Below, piece by piece: positions 48,570 through 56,870 of a stretch of DNA of 64,000 nt. Origin of the DNA: Kordiimonas pumila (GTDB lineage Bacteria > Pseudomonadota > Alphaproteobacteria > Sphingomonadales > Kordiimonadaceae); assembly GCF_015240255.1 (NCBI RefSeq), contig NZ_CP061205.1, positions 2,253,501 to 2,317,500 of the forward strand. Direction: 5' to 3'. Each line of letters opens with the position of its first letter. Position 1 is the stretch's first letter. The notes under the pieces are model-generated. The model did no database searches, had not been told where the DNA came from, and was given only the letters and a program-made list of their open reading frames with translations. A program made the position numbers and the translations under genes.

Positions 48570-49949
48570 TTACTCGTATGCTTCGCGGTATTTTCTAACA
48601 ACGCGTAGGGCAAAGATATTAAGGCACATTGTGATAACAAACAGGGTTAGACCAAGTGCAAATGCTGAGAGCGTTTTGGCACTGTCAAACTCTTGGTCAC
48701 CTGTTAAAAGCGCTACAATTTGCACTGTAACTGTTGTTACTGCTTCAAAGGGGTTAGCAGTAAGGTTTGGCTGCATGCCCGCTGCCATAACAACAATCAT
48801 CGTCTCACCTACGGCACGACTGATTGCAAGTAGGAAGGCACCGACAATGCCGGGTAGTGCTGCGGGTAAAAGCACCTTTATAATTGTCTCTGATTTTGTG
48901 GCGCCTAGTGCTAAAGACCCGTCTTTGAGGGAGTTCGGTACTGCTGTAATTGCATCATCTGATAATGATGAAACAAATGGAATAATCATTATACCCATCA
49001 CGAAACCTGCAGCAAGTGCGCTTTCACTGGCGATGTGAATGCCGAAAAAATCGCCTGTATCTCTAAAAAGTGGTGCAATGGTGAGGGCTGCAAAAAAACC
49101 ATAAACCACTGTTGGCACACCAGCGAGAATTTCAAGCATAGGCTTTACAATTTTGCGTACCCTTTCACTTGCATACTGTGTCATATAAATTGCTGAAAAC
49201 AGCCCTACAGGCCCAGCTATAAGCATAGCGAGAAGACTGATTAAAAACGTGCCGGCAAATAGGGGCACAGCACCAAAGGCACCGGAAGATCCCACTTGGT
49301 CAGCGCGTAGGGCAATCTGTGGGCTCCATTTAAGACCAAATAGAAATTCTGTAAGAGGAACTTCTTTAAAGAAGCGCACGCTTTCAAAAAACAATGAAAT
49401 GATAATGCCGAGTGTAGTGAAAATAGCGATGGCAGAACTAGCAATCAGGAAGGCAGTCATTACTTTTTCAAAGCGATTTCTTGCACGAAAGTCAGCGTGC
49501 GCTCTATTCAGTGCAAAGAACAAACCTAGTAAGCCAGCAGCAAGAGATAAACTAAACGCCGCCCATATACCTTTCAAGTAAAGCGCATGGTAATGGGATG
49601 CAGCGGCTAAAATGTCAGGGTTTGATTCTAGATTAGCACCATTCTCTATTACCAGCCGTATACGGTTAATAATGAGTGTTGCATGCTCTCTATATTGCTC
49701 GGTTATCCCTTCCGGCAAACCTGCAATCATGATGCTTTCAAGAATGTCCTGGCCAAATATAATCCAGAGGATGAACACCAATAAAGAAGGCAAAAGCACA
49801 CAGCTAGCTGCAAAATATCCATAGTGCCTTGGAAGTGAATGTAGCTTGGATGTATCACCGTCAACAGAAGCAAGTGCTTTCTGCCGGACAATTGCGAAGG
49901 CCAGCAGGGCCAGTACAGAAACAATAACAAATATTACGGAGCTAGTCAT
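48570..49949 (-). CDS. pstC: Phosphate ABC transporter permease PstC
   Basis: A 459-residue membrane permease subunit partnering PstA. Helices lie near residues 5-20, 47-70, 130-150 and 165-190, then the permease core with the motif SLALGATKSETIIKVLLPAA (about 350-370) and VGETMIVVMAAGMQPN. The N-terminal half is extended relative to the E. coli protein (about 320 residues). It lies downstream of pstS with an 87-base gap. Confidence 0.93.
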   Translation of the reverse strand: MTSSVIFVIVSVLALLAFAIVRQKALASVDGDTSKLHSLPRHYGYFAASCVLLPSLLVFILWIIFGQDILESIMIAGLPEGITEQYREHATLIINRIRLVIENGANLESNPDILAAASHYHALYLKGIWAAFSLSLAAGLLGLFFALNRAHADFRARNRFEKVMTAFLIASSAIAIFTTLGIIISLFFESVRFFKEVPLTEFLFGLKWSPQIALRADQVGSSGAFGAVPLFAGTFLISLLAMLIAGPVGLFSAIYMTQYASERVRKIVKPMLEILAGVPTVVYGFFAALTIAPLFRDTGDFFGIHIASESALAAGFVMGIMIIPFVSSLSDDAITAVPNSLKDGSLALGATKSETIIKVLLPAALPGIVGAFLLAISRAVGETMIVVMAAGMQPNLTANPFEAVTTVTVQIVALLTGDQEFDSAKTLSAFALGLTLFVITMCLNIFALRVVRKYREAYE

Positions 49950-50036: not shown

Positions 50037-51113
50037 TTAGTCGAGAGTCAGAGGCTTCAACGTTTCAGCTGCGTGCTTTACTTCTTCCTGTTCTTCACTG
50101 GAAAGAGGGATAAGGCCGCGATCCGATAAATACCCTAGGTCACCGATTGCTTTATCACTGGTGAACTCTGCAAGATATTCTTCAATGCCTGGAATAACAC
50201 CAATGTGAGCTTTCTTAACATAGAAGAATAGAGAGCGTGATATTGGGTATGCACCATCGGAAATCGCTTCAAAAGTCGGCTCTTGTGGTTCGTCACCAAC
50301 ATGTTTAGCAACAGGGAAAGCAATAATCACGTCAGCATTTTGGTCAAGAAAGCTGAAACCAAAGACACCAACTGCTTTATCATCGGCTTGTAGCTTTTGA
50401 ACAATAAGGTTGTCGTTTTCACCAGCTTCAACATAAGCACCGTCTTCACGAATGCTGAGGCAAACAGCTTTATATGTTTTAGGCTCAGTTTTCTTGAGGG
50501 CTGCATTACCTGAGAATGAATCACAGCCTGCTTCAATTGCTAGCTCATTAAAGGCATCGCGGGTCCCTGATGTTGGAGGAGGGCCAAGCACAACAATGGG
50601 TTTATTTGGAAGGGAAGGGTTAACTTCATTCCAGTTTTTGTATGGGTTGTCTATAATGTGATCAAGACCACCCTCTGTGCCTTTTTCAGGCACCTTAGCG
50701 GCAAGAGCCAAATACAGGTCTTTTAAGGTTAATGTCATTGGCTCCGCATTTTTTGATGCGGCAATAACAATACCGTCATATCCAATTTTTACTTCTATGA
50801 TGTCTGATACACCATTACTCGCGCATAGCTCTACTTCAGATTTTTTAATTCGGCGCGAAGAGTTGGTAATATCTGGGTGGCTCGTGCCGATGCCTGCGCA
50901 AAAAAGTTTCAGGCCGCCGCCGGAACCTGTTGATTCAACAATTGGCGTTTTAAAAGATGATGTGCGCCCAAACTCTTCTGCCACGGCTGTGGAAAATGGG
51001 AATACAGTAGAAGAGCCAACAATGCGGATTTGATCGCGTGATTGTGCTTCAGCGTTTTGTGAAGTGAAGGATACTGTGCCTATAAGGGCAGCAAGAAGTG
51101 CTAACTTTTTCAT
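50037..51113 (-). CDS. pstS: Periplasmic phosphate-binding protein PstS
   Basis: A 358-residue solute-binding protein. ATG 51113 gives a normal signal peptide (about residues 1-23, ending QNAEAQ) and has AGAGGA at the right distance; an upstream frame to 51173 would not begin with a signal. Phosphate-contacting motifs are RIVGSSTVFPFSTAVAEEF, ESTGSGGGLKLFCAG and PPTSGTRDAFNELAI. It captures phosphate for the PstCAB importer and is the second gene of the regulon, with its own Pho box. Confidence 0.95.
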   Translation of the reverse strand: MKKLALLAALIGTVSFTSQNAEAQSRDQIRIVGSSTVFPFSTAVAEEFGRTSSFKTPIVESTGSGGGLKLFCAGIGTSHPDITNSSRRIKKSEVELCASNGVSDIIEVKIGYDGIVIAASKNAEPMTLTLKDLYLALAAKVPEKGTEGGLDHIIDNPYKNWNEVNPSLPNKPIVVLGPPPTSGTRDAFNELAIEAGCDSFSGNAALKKTEPKTYKAVCLSIREDGAYVEAGENDNLIVQKLQADDKAVGVFGFSFLDQNADVIIAFPVAKHVGDEPQEPTFEAISDGAYPISRSLFFYVKKAHIGVIPGIEEYLAEFTSDKAIGDLGYLSDRGLIPLSSEEQEEVKHAAETLKPLTLD

Positions 51114-51186
51114 TCTGGTCCTCTCCAACCCGCATTTTTTGCGGAAGATTTGGTTCGTTATCAAGAAACACATCTAAAATTAGATT

Positions 51187-51257: not shown

Positions 51258-52565
51258 TTATTTCACTTTCGTGACATCACTGGGGGCCGTGTTTCGTGAA
51301 ACCGGCAATTTGAAGCTGAAGACGGTACCTTGGCCGATTTTACTTTTGATGTCTAGCTGTGAACCATGTCGCAAAAGTATGTGTTTTACAATAGCAAGTC
51401 CAAGCCCTGTACCCCCCATTTTTCGCGACCGGGCAGTATCCACACGGTAAAAGCGTTCTGTGAGTCTGCCTAAATGTTCCATCGCTATTCCAGGGCCTTC
51501 ATCACGCACAGAAAGAATGACGCTTTTACCGGTATGTGCAAGAGTGGCGCTCACATGAATATTGGTGTCTTGATCTGCATACTTTGCAGCATTCCCAATG
51601 AGGTTGACAAAAACCTGTGTGATTTGGTCACTGTCAGCGACAACGCGGGGCAAATTATCTTCCATATTTGAGATAAATTTAATACCACGTTTGCTAGCGC
51701 GTGTTGAAAAGGTTGTTATTGTACTGTTAATAACAGTTTGTACATCAATAGTGCTTTCTGGCGTGATGTGGCGTGTCATTTCAATTTGTGACAATGATAA
51801 TAAATCATCAATCAGGCGTATCATTCTATCGGCTTCACTTGACATAATGTCCAGAAAACGCTGCTGCGCCTCAATGTCGTCGCGTGCTGGCCCTTGAAGG
51901 GTTTCTATGAAGCCGGTAATGGATGTAAGGGGGGTTCTTAGCTCATGGCTGGCATTGGCTACAAAATCTACCCGCATTTGCTCTGTACGTAACAAGCTTG
52001 TGACTTCATAAAAGAACACCAGTGCCTGTATTGGTTCAGCGGCGTTTGCTTCCGTGTTTGTGACAGGTCCCAGTGTTAAATCAAAGCTACGACCATGGCT
52101 GTTGGTGTAACGAATTGTACCATTATGGGCTGGATCTCCAGCAAGGACTTTGTCCAGAGCTGTAACAAAACTTGACTGGCGCAAATAAAGGAAAACGTCA
52201 TTTGTTACAATTTCATGACCAAGGAGGGTTAGTGCGGCATCGTTAGCAAAGGTAATAGTATGGTTGTCATCAACCAATACTATAGGGGAGGGTAAGCCGT
52301 TTAAGGCATTAGCGCGTAAGGACTGAACCCCTTGTTCATTAGTAATACGACGTTCTTGAGCGACAGACCGTCTGATTTTTAGTTCCTCAATGCGGTTATT
52401 AACTTCTAACTGTAATAAAAGAGCGGCGGCACTACCTGCTATAACAAAAAAGCTTATAAATGTCAGTTGGTTAACCGACCATAGCACTGCAATCACAGCA
52501 ATGATAACTATGAGAATACCTTTTTCTGTTACAAGGGTTTTATAGTCTTTTAAAGGTGAACTCAT
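51258..52565 (-). CDS. phoR: Phosphate regulon sensor kinase PhoR
   Basis: A 435-residue membrane histidine kinase. Two closely spaced hydrophobic helices (about residues 15-52) anchor it, a PAS-like domain follows (about 85-190: LPSPIVLVDDNHTITFAND), then the phosphoacceptor helix FVANASHELRTPLTSI with His 207, and the ATPase domain with NLIGNAAKYAD, RDEGPGIAMEHL and MGGTGLGLAIVKHI. It phosphorylates PhoB under phosphate limitation. It heads the regulon and is transcribed away from the gene at 52875. Confidence 0.95.
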   Translation of the reverse strand: MSSPLKDYKTLVTEKGILIVIIAVIAVLWSVNQLTFISFFVIAGSAAALLLQLEVNNRIEELKIRRSVAQERRITNEQGVQSLRANALNGLPSPIVLVDDNHTITFANDAALTLLGHEIVTNDVFLYLRQSSFVTALDKVLAGDPAHNGTIRYTNSHGRSFDLTLGPVTNTEANAAEPIQALVFFYEVTSLLRTEQMRVDFVANASHELRTPLTSITGFIETLQGPARDDIEAQQRFLDIMSSEADRMIRLIDDLLSLSQIEMTRHITPESTIDVQTVINSTITTFSTRASKRGIKFISNMEDNLPRVVADSDQITQVFVNLIGNAAKYADQDTNIHVSATLAHTGKSVILSVRDEGPGIAMEHLGRLTERFYRVDTARSRKMGGTGLGLAIVKHILLRHGSQLDIKSKIGQGTVFSFKLPVSRNTAPSDVTKVK

Positions 52566-52874: not shown

Positions 52875-53714
52875 ATGCAAGACCCAATACAGCAGCCACA
52901 TGACCATAATAGGGCGTTTAGAGCTAAACGACGCCAATTGCTGCGAATGGGCGCGGCAGGTATGCCTATGGTGCTGACGCTTCGCGCTAGTGCCTCTGAA
53001 GCTATTATATCTCAGCTACGCTGTATGTTTACTATCCCTAGTAATCTGAAGATTTTGGTAGATAGTGAAGGCCAGGCTTGGGTGGGCGATGCCAGTATCC
53101 AGCAAGGCGCAAATGGCATGTTTGTGTCAGATGTGCAGTCTTTCAAAGATGGTGCAGATTATGTGTTCCCTGCGGGCAGTGTTCCTGAAAGTTACCGTCC
53201 TGATGCTTGCTCCAGTAACAGTAATCAATGCGGCGATGACGATGGCTGGGGTTGGGGTGACGATGACGATGATGGTGGTAGTAACGGTCACGGACATGGT
53301 CATGGCAGTAATTCATTAACCTATGAATATGCCGCATCTGGTAGTGATGAGCACGGCTATTATGCTGCTGATAATATGGGGCGTACATATGGCGGTAGTC
53401 ACGGAAACGGAAACGGCAATGGCCACGGCAATGGCAATAGCGGTGACGATGATGATGATAGTGGCCATGGTTCTGGAGATGACGATTGTGGTGAAAGTGA
53501 GTGGGTAGACTGCGGTTATACGCTTTATACTTATGGGTCCAATCACTCTATTTCGGTTGCTGACTATGTGAATGACCAAGGTAACTGGACACTTTCTGGT
53601 GACGATGGTCTCTTTCTTACACTTTCCATGATTTATGCAGACAGCTATGGTGGTGCTGGATCGTGGCCGGGAATATCCTGTATCGTTTCTGTTCTTACAT
53701 ACCTAGGGCAGTAA
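52875..53714 (+). CDS. Tat-like exported Gly/Asp/His-rich protein, HPr-rel-A locus
   Basis: A 279-residue protein of unknown function. The N terminus has a twin-arginine-like signal (Arg 19-20 in AKRRQLLRMGAAGMPMV, cleavage possible after about residue 41). After a short globular part (about 45-112) come two low-complexity stretches, about 119-145 and 173-205, made of Gly, Asp, His and Asn (for example GHGHGHG and DDDDD), which look able to bind metal ions. Six cysteines (50, 112, 119, 205, 213, 269) flank these stretches. GTGAGG precedes ATG 52875. It is followed by PqqD-like, HprK-like and nucleotidyltransferase genes, so it may be their substrate; that is inference from position. Confidence 0.7.
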   Translation: MQDPIQQPHDHNRAFRAKRRQLLRMGAAGMPMVLTLRASASEAIISQLRCMFTIPSNLKILVDSEGQAWVGDASIQQGANGMFVSDVQSFKDGADYVFPAGSVPESYRPDACSSNSNQCGDDDGWGWGDDDDDGGSNGHGHGHGSNSLTYEYAASGSDEHGYYAADNMGRTYGGSHGNGNGNGHGNGNSGDDDDDSGHGSGDDDCGESEWVDCGYTLYTYGSNHSISVADYVNDQGNWTLSGDDGLFLTLSMIYADSYGGAGSWPGISCIVSVLTYLGQ

Positions 53715-53749
53715 AACTGGTAACTAGCAGCAAGGGGCCAGCATAAGCT

Positions 53750-54064
53750 ATGGCAGCAGGACCAGTTGATTCCAGTTTTTTATGGGTCGCAGATGCGGCC
53801 CATATTTCTAACCGGCAGTTTGAAGATGTTTTTCTGGTTTTTAATAAACTGTCTGGCGATACTCACATTTTGAACTTCTTATCCGCCGCTATACTTGATT
53901 TTTTAAGTGATGAGAAAATGCAGGTAGCTGATCTGGCTGCCCGTATTTGGTTGGAATTAGAGCTTGACCAAGAGGACTGTCCTGTAAGCCTGATTGAAAC
54001 TACACTTGCAGAGTTAGACACAACGGGGCTGGTTACACCTGTAACTGGAGCGCGCGATGATTGA
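53750..54064 (+). CDS. PqqD-like peptide chaperone, HPr-rel-A system
   Basis: A 104-residue protein with the PqqD fold, which in PQQ and other RiPP pathways binds the precursor peptide and hands it to the modifying enzyme. The typical segment is DVFLVFNKLSGDTHILNFLS followed by AAILDFLSD, then a helical C-terminal part (LIETTLAELDTTGLV). Its partner here is not a radical SAM enzyme but an HprK-related kinase, the combination named the HPr-rel-A system from genome context. It overlaps the kinase gene by 8 bases. Confidence 0.82.
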   Translation: MAAGPVDSSFLWVADAAHISNRQFEDVFLVFNKLSGDTHILNFLSAAILDFLSDEKMQVADLAARIWLELELDQEDCPVSLIETTLAELDTTGLVTPVTGARDD

Positions 54065-54989
54065 GTTTCGGCGAGCACGCGATTTTTCTCGTGATGAAAT
54101 TCTCGGTGCTATGAAGCAAGGCACGCTTGAAATGTCGCTTGGTCCTTTTACGACACTTGTTAAAGCAAACAGTCCGTCACTGCTTGAGTTTTTTTACGAT
54201 GCATACCGTGATGTACCTGTTCGGCTGGTGATGCAGGATGTTACAGATATAACGCTTGAGATGCGTGCGCCCACTATAGTGCGGCGGTATATTCGTAAGC
54301 AAATTATCCCTGACCCAGGCTTTCAGGTGCCCGCTATTCCGCTGCCGGAAAGTATGGCTGCCTTATCTTTTGAAATGGGCTTAAATCTTGCTGTAGCTTT
54401 AAAGTGTTGCCGCTATGTAACCTTTCATGCAGGTGTTGTTGCAGGGCCTAAAGGGGCTATCTTAATGTGTGCTGCATCTGGCGGTGGTAAAAGCACTCTT
54501 GTGTCTGCATTAATGGAGGAAGGATACAGGTTATATTCTGATGAATTTGGCCTCCTGAATTTGCAAACGGCAAAACTGCATGCTTACCCGCGACCAATTT
54601 CCCTAAAAGGGAGTTCCATCCCAATTGTGCGGGATATGTCTGGGCCTGACTGGATGACACCTGCCTTAACAGGCACTCCAAAGGGGCAGATTGCATACCG
54701 CCGGCCAAGGCCGGAAGATATTTTGAATGAAAACCCGGTTGCGGTTACTCGGTTAATATTTTTTCCACGTTTTCAGGAAGGCGCACGCCCCGCAGCTCGT
54801 AAAATGGCTAAATCAGAAGCTATTATGCGACTTATTCCAAGCTCGACAAATTATCACCTGCTTGGGGAAGAGGCCTTTACTGCCCTTGCTAATATGGTTG
54901 CTGGTGCTGAAGCCTATGAACTTGTGTACGGTAATACGCGGGATAGTTTGGTAATGGTGAAAGACTTGGCTGCAAAGGTGATGGTATGA
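54057..54989 (+). CDS. HprK-related kinase A
   Basis: A 310-residue P-loop kinase related to the HPr kinase/phosphatase. The Walker A segment is ASGGGKSTLVSAL (Lys 145), an acidic SDEF motif (Asp 162) follows at the expected Mg position, and an N-terminal domain (about residues 1-110) precedes it. HprK phosphorylates a serine of HPr; here the substrate is unknown and may be the product of the upstream genes. The PqqD-like gene overlaps its start and its own stop overlaps the nucleotidyltransferase start, so all three are translated together. Confidence 0.85.
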   Translation: MIEFRRARDFSRDEILGAMKQGTLEMSLGPFTTLVKANSPSLLEFFYDAYRDVPVRLVMQDVTDITLEMRAPTIVRRYIRKQIIPDPGFQVPAIPLPESMAALSFEMGLNLAVALKCCRYVTFHAGVVAGPKGAILMCAASGGGKSTLVSALMEEGYRLYSDEFGLLNLQTAKLHAYPRPISLKGSSIPIVRDMSGPDWMTPALTGTPKGQIAYRRPRPEDILNENPVAVTRLIFFPRFQEGARPAARKMAKSEAIMRLIPSSTNYHLLGEEAFTALANMVAGAEAYELVYGNTRDSLVMVKDLAAKVMV

Positions 54990-56029
54990 GCGCGCAGTGG
55001 TTAAGGGTTATTGCCGGTAAAATGCCTTTACCTGATGATATGCTAGAACGATCAAAGCTGTTAAATTATGCTGATGGTCATCATGTTTTAGGCCAAATGG
55101 CTACAGTTTGGTTGAATGAAGCAACGGGCAAAACCCATGACGTAATGGAAAATGCTCTTTATAGGGCTCGCTTTGATCACAATATGCTGCAGTTTGAAAT
55201 AAACCGCCTGCAAAGAGCTTTGTTGGGGAGTGATATAAAGGCGGTTCTGCTTAAAGGCGGTGCCTATGTAGCTTCCGACTTAAAGGCTGGCCGTGGCAGG
55301 CGCGTTAGTGACCTGGATATTCTTGTTGTAGAAGCTGATATTAAAAAAACCGAAAAGCTATTACTGGAAGCTGAATGGGCTTTTGATGAGACAACTGCTA
55401 ATCCGTATGATCAGCAGTATTACCGAGAAAATATGCATGAGTTACCACCTTTAAGGCACACTAAAAGGCGCACTATATTAGATGTACATCATTGTTTGTT
55501 GCCTAAAACTGCTCGTGTTAAAATAAGATCCGAGTTGTTTTTTGATACTATAAAGCCATTTGCCAATACTGGCCTTTATACTTTTGATGAATTAGATACA
55601 TTTATCCATTCGGCTATTCATTCATTTGCCGATGGCTCCTTTGATACACCAGCACGCAGCGTTTTGGAGCTATGGTATCTATTGCAAGATATTCCAGAGA
55701 CCAAAGATGAAGCGTTATGGCACCGTGCACAAGCAACGGGCGCAGAAAAGCCTGTGAGCTATGCTTTATGGGCGGTTGGTGCTTTTCTTGATGAGGAACG
55801 AGCCAATGCTCTTTTAACGAGAAGTTCGGTTAAGCTTTCAGTGTTGGTGAGATGGTGTTTCAGGCAAAAGCTGGAAAAGCCTGATCAAGCATATTTTGCA
55901 AAGCTGGTTTTGTATATTCGCAGCCACTATATGCGAATGCCTATGGGCAAATTGGTCGGTCATTTAGCAGTAAAGCTATTTCGGCGTCTTAAAGGTCTAA
56001 TAGACCAACAAGATCAGACAAAGACGTAA
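54986..56029 (+). CDS. Nucleotidyltransferase-family protein, HPr-rel-A locus
   Basis: A 347-residue protein of the NTP_transf_5 type. The nucleotidyltransferase core is at about residues 85-120: AVLLKGGAYVA followed by RRVSDLDILVVEAD, with the metal-binding Asp pair 109 and 111. A His-rich HELPPLRHTKRRTILDVHHC segment (about 152-170) and an alpha-helical C-terminal half follow. Family members occur beside HprK-related kinase A genes; the target molecule is unknown. Its 3' end overlaps the convergent gph-like gene by 41 bases. Confidence 0.8.
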   Translation: MSAQWLRVIAGKMPLPDDMLERSKLLNYADGHHVLGQMATVWLNEATGKTHDVMENALYRARFDHNMLQFEINRLQRALLGSDIKAVLLKGGAYVASDLKAGRGRRVSDLDILVVEADIKKTEKLLLEAEWAFDETTANPYDQQYYRENMHELPPLRHTKRRTILDVHHCLLPKTARVKIRSELFFDTIKPFANTGLYTFDELDTFIHSAIHSFADGSFDTPARSVLELWYLLQDIPETKDEALWHRAQATGAEKPVSYALWAVGAFLDEERANALLTRSSVKLSVLVRWCFRQKLEKPDQAYFAKLVLYIRSHYMRMPMGKLVGHLAVKLFRRLKGLIDQQDQTKT

Positions 56030-56651
56030 TACAAGCATCAGGCCCAAGAGATAAAATAGGCTGGTCTGGGTAGCCATAATTTGCGGCAATAACCGGTATA
56101 CCAGCTGCCTTAGCGCATAAAATATCCGGTGAGCTATCACCAACCATCACGGCAGGCCCCTTTATACCCATCAGTTTAATGGTTTCCTGCAAATGCCTAG
56201 GGTCAGGTTTTTTATAAGGGAAACTATCGCCCCCAGTGATTGCTTCAAAATAAGAGGAAAGGCCTAAGTCCCCCAGCAGTTGCTGTGCCAAACCTAAAGG
56301 TTTATTTGTGCATATAGCCATTTTAACCCCTGCACCTTGAAGGGTATTAAGCATTTCCGAACCGCCCGAAAACAAGCGGGAATGTACAGAGATGTGGTTG
56401 CTGTAATAGCTTAGAAACATGTCTTTATAGTCATGTGCGTTATACTTAGTTGTGTTGCCGGAGAGTTCCAAACCTGTTTCAATAAGCTTAATAGCACCAA
56501 AGCCTACATAAGGCCTAACCTGCTCAAGTGTAGCCGGAGCAATGTTCAGGCTTTTTAAAACATGGTTTGTTGCGGCATGCAGATCAACTGCTGTGTCAAT
56601 TAAGGTACCATCCAAATCAAAAACCACTATTTTGGCAGGAAATTTAGTCAT
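55989..56651 (-). CDS. gph: HAD-family phosphatase (phosphoglycolate phosphatase-like)
   Basis: A 220-residue haloacid dehalogenase-type phosphatase. Motif I is VVFDLDGTLIDT near the start (nucleophile Asp, acid/base Asp), motif II is ICTNKPLG, motif III is PYKKPDPRHL and motif IV is MVGDSSPDI. The helical cap (about residues 20-85) is of the Gph type, suggesting dephosphorylation of 2-phosphoglycolate, though substrate cannot be fixed by eye. I use ATG 56651; a GTG at 56705 would add 18 residues without a ribosome binding site. Confidence 0.85.
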   Translation of the reverse strand: MTKFPAKIVVFDLDGTLIDTAVDLHAATNHVLKSLNIAPATLEQVRPYVGFGAIKLIETGLELSGNTTKYNAHDYKDMFLSYYSNHISVHSRLFSGGSEMLNTLQGAGVKMAICTNKPLGLAQQLLGDLGLSSYFEAITGGDSFPYKKPDPRHLQETIKLMGIKGPAVMVGDSSPDILCAKAAGIPVIAANYGYPDQPILSLGPDACITSLSDLVGLLDL

Positions 56652-56870
56652 AAAGCAGCTGTATCCTTGAAGCTCACAAAAGCGCCCATACCTATTATCG
56701 GTCACTGTTTGAAAAGCAAGTTTATTTAAATTTTAGTAGCAGTAATAGGGCATTTTCTGTTGATATAACTTGCGTCTGACATTTTTGCATGATTTAAGGG
56801 TCCGCCGTAAGGCTACAGACCAAAAAAGATCATGTTTAGGTATGTGATGGAACTAGATTGAGGAACTGTG

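Follow-up and report, generated by a model that had tools for sequence, protein, structure and literature searches.

Introduction

Among described systems, those closest to the genes treated here are the phosphorylated lasso peptides and a gene set that is already named HPr-rel-A. According to the accessible parts of two papers, HPr-kinase homologues phosphorylate the C-terminal Ser of lasso precursors, and PsmN, a nucleotidyltransferase homologue, adds a hexose to the lasso phosphate (PMC9266682, PMC8498205); a further paper on PqqD-family peptides concerns, in its accessible part, lasso clusters (PMC9064862). HPr-rel-A can be compared by the names of its models only (TIGR04352, HprK_rel_A; TIGR04353, PqqD_rel_X), and these names state no substrate. 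Literature searches on HPr-rel-A, on TIGR04352 or on an HprK-related kinase with PqqD found no papers, and no known HPr-rel-A substrate was found in the literature searched. In this study, we analysed a stretch of 64,000 nucleotides from Kordiimonas pumila (NZ_CP061205.1, positions 2,253,501 to 2,317,500; hereafter the window), from a genome of a single 4.04 Mb contig, in which an HPr-rel-A kinase gene and a PqqD gene adjoin and both products pass the curated cut-offs. Directly upstream lies a gene (gene 1) for an exported protein with a twin-arginine (RR) signal, P0001, which is very probably a dedicated partner of HPr-rel-A genes. The partner, its CxxS motif and its phoR neighbourhood are what we add to the named system.

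Gene Set and Linkage

The gene set comprises four open reading frames (ORFs), all on the plus strand at 52875-56029 in the ORF list of the window:

52875 to 53714, plus strand: exported protein P0001 with an RR signal, 279 amino acids (aa), candidate substrate (from the ORF)
53750 to 54064, plus strand: PqqD-like protein, 104 aa, putative substrate presenter (TIGR04353)
54057 to 54989, plus strand: HprK-related kinase A, 310 aa (TIGR04352)
54986 to 56029, plus strand: nucleotidyltransferase NTP_transf_5, 347 aa (PF14907)

The kinase start overlaps the PqqD stop by 8 nucleotides, and the nucleotidyltransferase start overlaps the kinase stop by 4. The original prediction had described four ordered plus-strand genes, the last three overlapping, and both the ORF coordinates and the profile scores agree with it: 50.4 bits for the PqqD-like protein with TIGR04353 (cut-off 35), 223.1 bits for the kinase with TIGR04352 (cut-off 200) and 122.9 bits for the nucleotidyltransferase with PF14907 (cut-off 31.2). 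The PqqD-like protein had no Pfam match at E ≤ 0.1.

A phmmer search with gene 1 matched 38 ORFs, spread over 35 of 72 loci; these include the window and L001, its own copy. Contigs were then scanned with the kinase alignment, and the best 80 of 532 confirmed loci were considered; in these, a nucleotidyltransferase profile match was present in 76, making NTP_transf_5 a regular third gene, and a PqqD profile match in 74. Four loci with less than 700 nucleotides upstream of the kinase were dropped (L109, L113, L115, L149), leaving 76 assessable loci, and 69 of them carry an RR-signal ORF in the cluster. It had been suggested that homologues of the 52875 protein be sought next to HPr-rel-A genes of other genomes, and this is where most of them were found. 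The linked partners were recognised by the partner profile in 63 loci and by signal and place only in six (L126, L127, L131, L136, L143, L145); 68 lie upstream of the PqqD or kinase gene, while in the rearranged L148 the partner follows the nucleotidyltransferase gene yet still stands beside the PqqD gene. In L127 and L145, the interval from partner to kinase showed no PqqD gene. For six of the 76 loci, a partner relative is found elsewhere in the genome, namely L106 (Methylococcaceae; outside the L106 stretch and ending with an SCWASL motif) and the Sphingopyxis loci L117, L123, L129, L138 and L150, and in L146 (3924-4238) the partner carries a frameshift and lies outside the cluster, about 1.5 kb away, with phoR still near it. 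Linked loci span Alpha-, Beta- and Gammaproteobacteria and a metagenome-assembled genome of Magnetococcales, and L005, L043, L051 and L055 have two or more partner genes in tandem. Among 1,100 ORFs of at least 100 aa in loci L032-L159, 113 show a loose RR pattern, a background that includes the partners themselves (60 with the CxxS motif) and some kinase ORFs; compared with it, 69 of 76 is more than chance.

The same pairing is seen at the level of whole genomes. In an order sample of 147 genomes, the kinase was found in 80 at 187 bits or more (78 above the cut-off of 200; the next score was 54 bits), and the partner profile matched 80 at E ≤ 0.001. Both sets consist of the same genomes (80 with kinase and partner, 67 without either, 0 discordant), so that the RR-signal partner, proposed here as the fourth HPr-rel-A member, is present in 80/80 kinase genomes and in 0/67 others. 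The Fisher value of 1.5e-43 takes no account of common descent and should not be read as a probability for independent events. The profile hits of G006 and G036 are marginal (2.9e-4 and 7.2e-4), and the frames read there encode complete partners, each of which has an RR signal and a [ST]CxxS close to its C-terminus and stands immediately before a PqqD-like frame. Kinase and partner are apart, and both retained, in G035, G053, G080, G097 and G118; in G045 they are on separate short contigs. In a class sample of 289 genomes, at least four of them in common with the order sample, the kinase was found in 8 and the partner profile matched 11, 7 of these with the kinase. The kinase genome G164 has a partner-like ORF after the nucleotidyltransferase gene (L183) that the search missed. 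As for the other matches, G280 has a partner and a PqqD gene at the end of a contig but yielded no kinase, G318 has a signal-only match near a contig edge, and those of G243 and G315 resemble RR-signal proteins of the ordinary kind. Additionally, eight genomes of the window's genus, all with the kinase, have a second partner away from it (L152-L159); all eight second partners keep [ST]CxxS, and seven appear by eye to lie by a sigma-70-like gene, of which one was checked (Sigma70_r2, 48.6 bits).

The linkage in 69 of 76 loci and the complete co-occurrence in 147 genomes, even where the genes are unlinked, bear out the earlier assignment of gene 1 to the HPr-rel-A genes. Retention of the partner gene away from the kinase, and a partner that stays with the PqqD gene in L148, were counted in favour of one system. 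Since kinase and partner are almost always together across genomes, the partner is probably, although not with the same assurance as the pairing itself, the protein that is modified. To hypothesize otherwise, the kinase and the nucleotidyltransferase could act on another molecule, with gene 1 encoding an exported protein of the same pathway. This would suit the fact that modification of the gene 1 protein is inferred, and that partner types without a C-terminal CxxS exist (see below), but it must account for a co-occurrence without exception in 147 genomes, for a linkage to the PqqD gene that survives rearrangement and for an invariant Ser near the C-terminus, and we consider it quite unlikely.

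Signal, Conserved Residues and Model of the Partner

The N-terminal region of P0001 carries KRRQLLRMGAAGMPMVLTLRASA, and the following parts of the protein are referred to below:

52875 to 53000, plus strand: N-terminal signal, residues 1-42, with R19 R20 and T35 (alignment conservation)
53022 to 53024, plus strand: C50, invariant Cys at the start of the mature domain (54 of 54 in alignment A2)
53214 to 53489, plus strand: Gly/Asp/His-rich low-complexity insert, approximately residues 114-205 (model confidence, alignment)
53679 to 53690, plus strand: C269-x-x-S272 motif, S272 being the proposed modification site (alignment conservation)

Alignment A2 holds 54 partner members and was assembled from kinase-linked ones. 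Only R20, C50 and S272 are invariant in it, that is, only C50 and S272 beyond the signal, while R19, L23, G26, S46, G266 and C269 are conserved in at least 90%. A wider alignment of 64 rows, one of them known to be wrong (L081, wrong frame), retains S272 in 60 rows and C50 in 59, and has T or S at position 35 in 63. The twin-arginine signal of P0001 was assigned by eye only: RR is followed by a hydrophobic stretch and A-x-A, with the cleavage site also placed by eye. A strict RR...P-x-x-[TS]-[LIFVM] pattern fits 34 of the 54 partners and a relaxed form 52. The same strict pattern fits 0 of 11 segments near the 13 places in the window's genome matched by the Tat (twin-arginine translocation) signal model TIGR01409 at E ≤ 10, a weak control because only about 5 of the 11 lie at the hit; P0001 is not among these 13 places. 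One partner relative reached 13.3 bits with that model, below its cut-off of 16.7.

The motif [ST]CxxS is present in 108 of 121 non-redundant partner hits and in 4.5% of shuffled mature parts, and in 104 of the 108 its Ser lies at most 25 residues from the C-terminus. The 13 hits without it are two ordinary RR-signal proteins, one frameshifted, one near a contig edge and nine of other partner types. Partners of the Nitrosomonas type, read by eye, have AYTSL or AFNSI near the end, without Cys, and keep a Ser and then a hydrophobic residue near the C-terminus; L132 has ALNSF. A further type has a mature part that is SPGYW-like or rich in Cys, with no C-terminal CxxS.

The original prediction had drawn attention to two Gly/Asp/His-rich stretches and six cysteines. 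P0001 indeed has two such runs, as seen by eye, and Cys at positions 50, 112, 119, 205, 213 and 269, but neither trait is a feature of the family, whose conserved residues are two Cys and one Ser. Most of the members shown that do not belong to the window's family lack the insert. Similar Asp/His/Gly-rich inserts recur in G006 and G036 (L166, L167), which belong to another family of the order. Despite this recurrence, the stretches were rejected as a functional core, being a variable insert of low model confidence.

For the partner, literature and family-model searches yielded neither a paper nor a model. P0001 has no Pfam family match, the 54 aligned partners have none at E ≤ 0.01, and NCBIfam gave no relevant family for them, with three unrelated models matching one member each. 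The AlphaFold model of P0001 has a mean predicted local distance difference test (pLDDT) score of 71.4 and a predicted template modelling (pTM) score of 0.59, with a confident core (115 residues at pLDDT ≥ 90) split by the low-complexity insert (block means of 35-64 across residues 111-210); the last helix (267-277) contains S272. In the model of a 134-residue Sphingomonas partner (pLDDT 68.6), which has C49, C126 and S129 among the invariant residues, S129 is likewise in the last helix, 124-131. No known fold was recognised for the P0001 model: none of 89 Foldseek matches in the PDB reached E ≤ 0.001, and none of 234 chains reached Z ≥ 2; the partner profile gave a best E of 0.13 against PDB sequences.

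Mature parts that vary by lineage and can be very short under a similar signal (ORFs of 75 aa in L183 and 93 aa in L184) call to mind a ribosomally synthesised and post-translationally modified peptide (RiPP), in which gene 1 would encode the precursor, the signal region would serve as leader, and a C-terminal fragment would be modified, excised and released as a small product; in the accessible part of a review, PqqD-like B1 proteins bind RiPP leaders. However, the four recurrent genes include no peptidase or transporter, the genome lacks a PF13471 match, and the mature part of P0001 is predicted to be a folded domain, so a RiPP-like product seems unlikely.

Neighbourhood of the Gene Set

Three genes on the minus strand, on which the original prediction did not comment, precede gene 1:

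51258 to 52565, minus strand: phoR-like sensor kinase, divergent from gene 1 (TIGR02966 as best model, 312.9 bits, slightly below the cut-off of 334.2)
50037 to 51173, minus strand: pstS-like phosphate-binding protein (TIGR02136, 140.5 bits, under its cut-off of 206.6)
48570 to 49949, minus strand: pstC phosphate permease (TIGR02138, 289.1 bits, cut-off 196.45)

Of the 38 order loci in which 2.5 kb or more precede the kinase, 31 have a phoR relative upstream on the opposite strand, as do 40 of 66 loci from the wider scan (from the best 80 of 532), which partly overlap the order set. The phoR relative also stands beside the partner in five genomes where the kinase is apart, and in five Sphingopyxis. 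Gene 1 could accordingly be imagined as a phosphate-regulon accessory, a periplasmic partner or sensor of PhoR/Pst that the three enzymes modify to report phosphate, and both the neighbourhood in the order loci and the partners that remain by phoR away from the kinase speak for it. On the other hand, Pelagibius, Denitrobaculum, Nitrosomonas, Methyloversatilis and gammaproteobacteria keep the gene set, and no phoR was found in those of their loci with enough flank, nor in L045 and L048. Upstream regions of the window and of 39 loci from L073-L151 (40 in all, L073 being without phoR) were scored on both strands against the Pho box pattern, CTGTCATN4CTGTCAT; the best scores averaged 9.4 of 14, compared with 8.9 in shuffles, the highest being 12 of 14 in L083, and a conserved box was not found. 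The link between phoR and the partner may reflect function or inherited gene order, and a role as phosphate-regulon accessory appears decidedly improbable.

Other neighbours were noted as well. A phosphoglycolate phosphatase gene at 55989-56705 (TIGR01449, 186.1 bits, cut-off 180) is convergent with the nucleotidyltransferase gene and overlaps its end, and a relative of it lies downstream in many kinase loci. By eye, an asparagine-synthase-like ORF with an MCGITG start is found upstream of the partner in L045, L048 and L049, as a fragment in the last.

Proposed Mechanism

The sequences show which genes make up the set, that kinase and partner co-occur and which residues are conserved, and on this we build the following proposal. 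The PqqD-like protein would bind the gene 1 protein in the cytoplasm, probably through the unusually conserved signal region, and present it to the HprK-related kinase, which would phosphorylate S272 of the C-terminal [ST]CxxS motif, as we propose by analogy with the lasso-peptide kinases acting on a C-terminal Ser. The nucleotidyltransferase may then add a nucleotidyl or sugar group to the S272 phosphate, and the modified protein would leave by the Tat route, with C50 and C269 possibly disulfide-bonded outside. We infer each of these steps, that is, the modification and its site, the enzyme order, the PqqD-like binding, the export and the disulfide, and we do not hold them with equal conviction. 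That the four genes form one system, with the exported protein phosphorylated on S272, then acted on by the nucleotidyltransferase and sent through Tat, is our favoured reading and somewhat likely. For S272 as the very site the chances look about even, and for the kinase acting first and the nucleotidyltransferase second slightly below even. The fullest version, in which the Tat signal doubles as the PqqD-bound leader, phosphorylation and then nucleotidylation or glycosylation of the CxxS Ser precede export, and the whole is tied to PhoR in one order, is put forward tentatively.

Several points weigh against this proposal. Modification of the gene 1 protein is a prediction from sequence; P0001 itself has no match to TIGR01409 (TAT_signal_seq) at E ≤ 1; and A2, owing to its kinase-linked origin, may miss unlinked relatives. 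Position 35 within the signal, T or S in 63/64 rows, is equally conserved and is a rival site; S272 (of 279) is near the C-terminus and not its last residue; and the conserved Gly, Cys and Ser could be structural. The unlinked second partners weaken a one-to-one linkage, though they fit action in trans. The six partners recognised by signal and place are linked and match no partner profile; these and the partner of L182 lack the C-terminal CxxS, and L126, L127, L131 and L136 have, by eye, a C-x-x-S early in the mature part instead. Either the site moves, therefore, or these partners are something else; in a scan, none of the partners of L127, L131, L136, L145 and L182 reached a Pfam cut-off.

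If the proposal is true, PqqD-guided chemistry extends from small peptides to exported proteins and is linked, in one lineage, to phosphate sensing. The partner supplies a protein to assay, a specific Ser as a target for mutation and many hosts that can be cultured (Kordiimonas, Sphingomonas, Sphingopyxis, Nitrosomonas).

Comparison with Known Systems

The kinase has one further feature that bears on the comparison:

54474 to 54497, plus strand: Walker A (P-loop) of the kinase, residues 140-147 (G142, G144, K145 and S146 invariant in 35 sequences)

H124, K145, D162 and E163 are also invariant in these 35 kinase sequences. The best PDB matches of the kinase profile are structures of HPr kinase/phosphorylase (HprK/P), at E 1.3e-4 over about 50 residues of the His-Walker A-Asp region; the likeness to HprK/P lies in these top matches and does not extend to a full-length family match, as the kinase scores 11.1 bits with NF003883 (cut-off 252). 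The nucleotidyltransferase (P0004) had no PDB sequence relative at E ≤ 1. HprK-related kinase B (TIGR04355), the kinase of the GAK system, is also an HprK-related model, yet the window kinase reaches only 16.6 bits with it (cut-off 200).

The phosphorylated lasso peptides (paeninodin PadeK, ThcoK and SyanK; pseudomycoidin PsmK/PsmN) share with the window, in the accessible parts of the sources, an HPr-kinase homologue, a PqqD-like B1 protein, a nucleotidyltransferase homologue and a Ser at or near the C-terminus, and the residues H124/K145/D162/E163 resemble a His-Lys-Asp-Asp motif given for lasso kinases in the accessible part of a review. The differences are that the window's candidate substrate, which bears an RR signal, is a larger protein, and that the phospho-Ser is the last residue there, whereas here the Ser is followed by 3-49 residues in the 108 motif-bearing members. 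Moreover, PF13471, the lasso B2 transglutaminase-like leader peptidase, has no match at E ≤ 0.001 in the window genome, and for this reason, together with the position of S272, membership of the lasso peptides was rejected. Two distant kinase relatives were noted in passing: L201, which adjoins a PqqD-like gene in a neighbourhood of lasso type, scores no more than 64.4 bits with TIGR04352 (cut-off 200), and L203, a weak relative in the same model, has a nucleotidyltransferase relative directly 3'. It is HPr-rel-A that the window matches by both of its models, TIGR04352 and TIGR04353, each above its cut-off and in overlapping genes.

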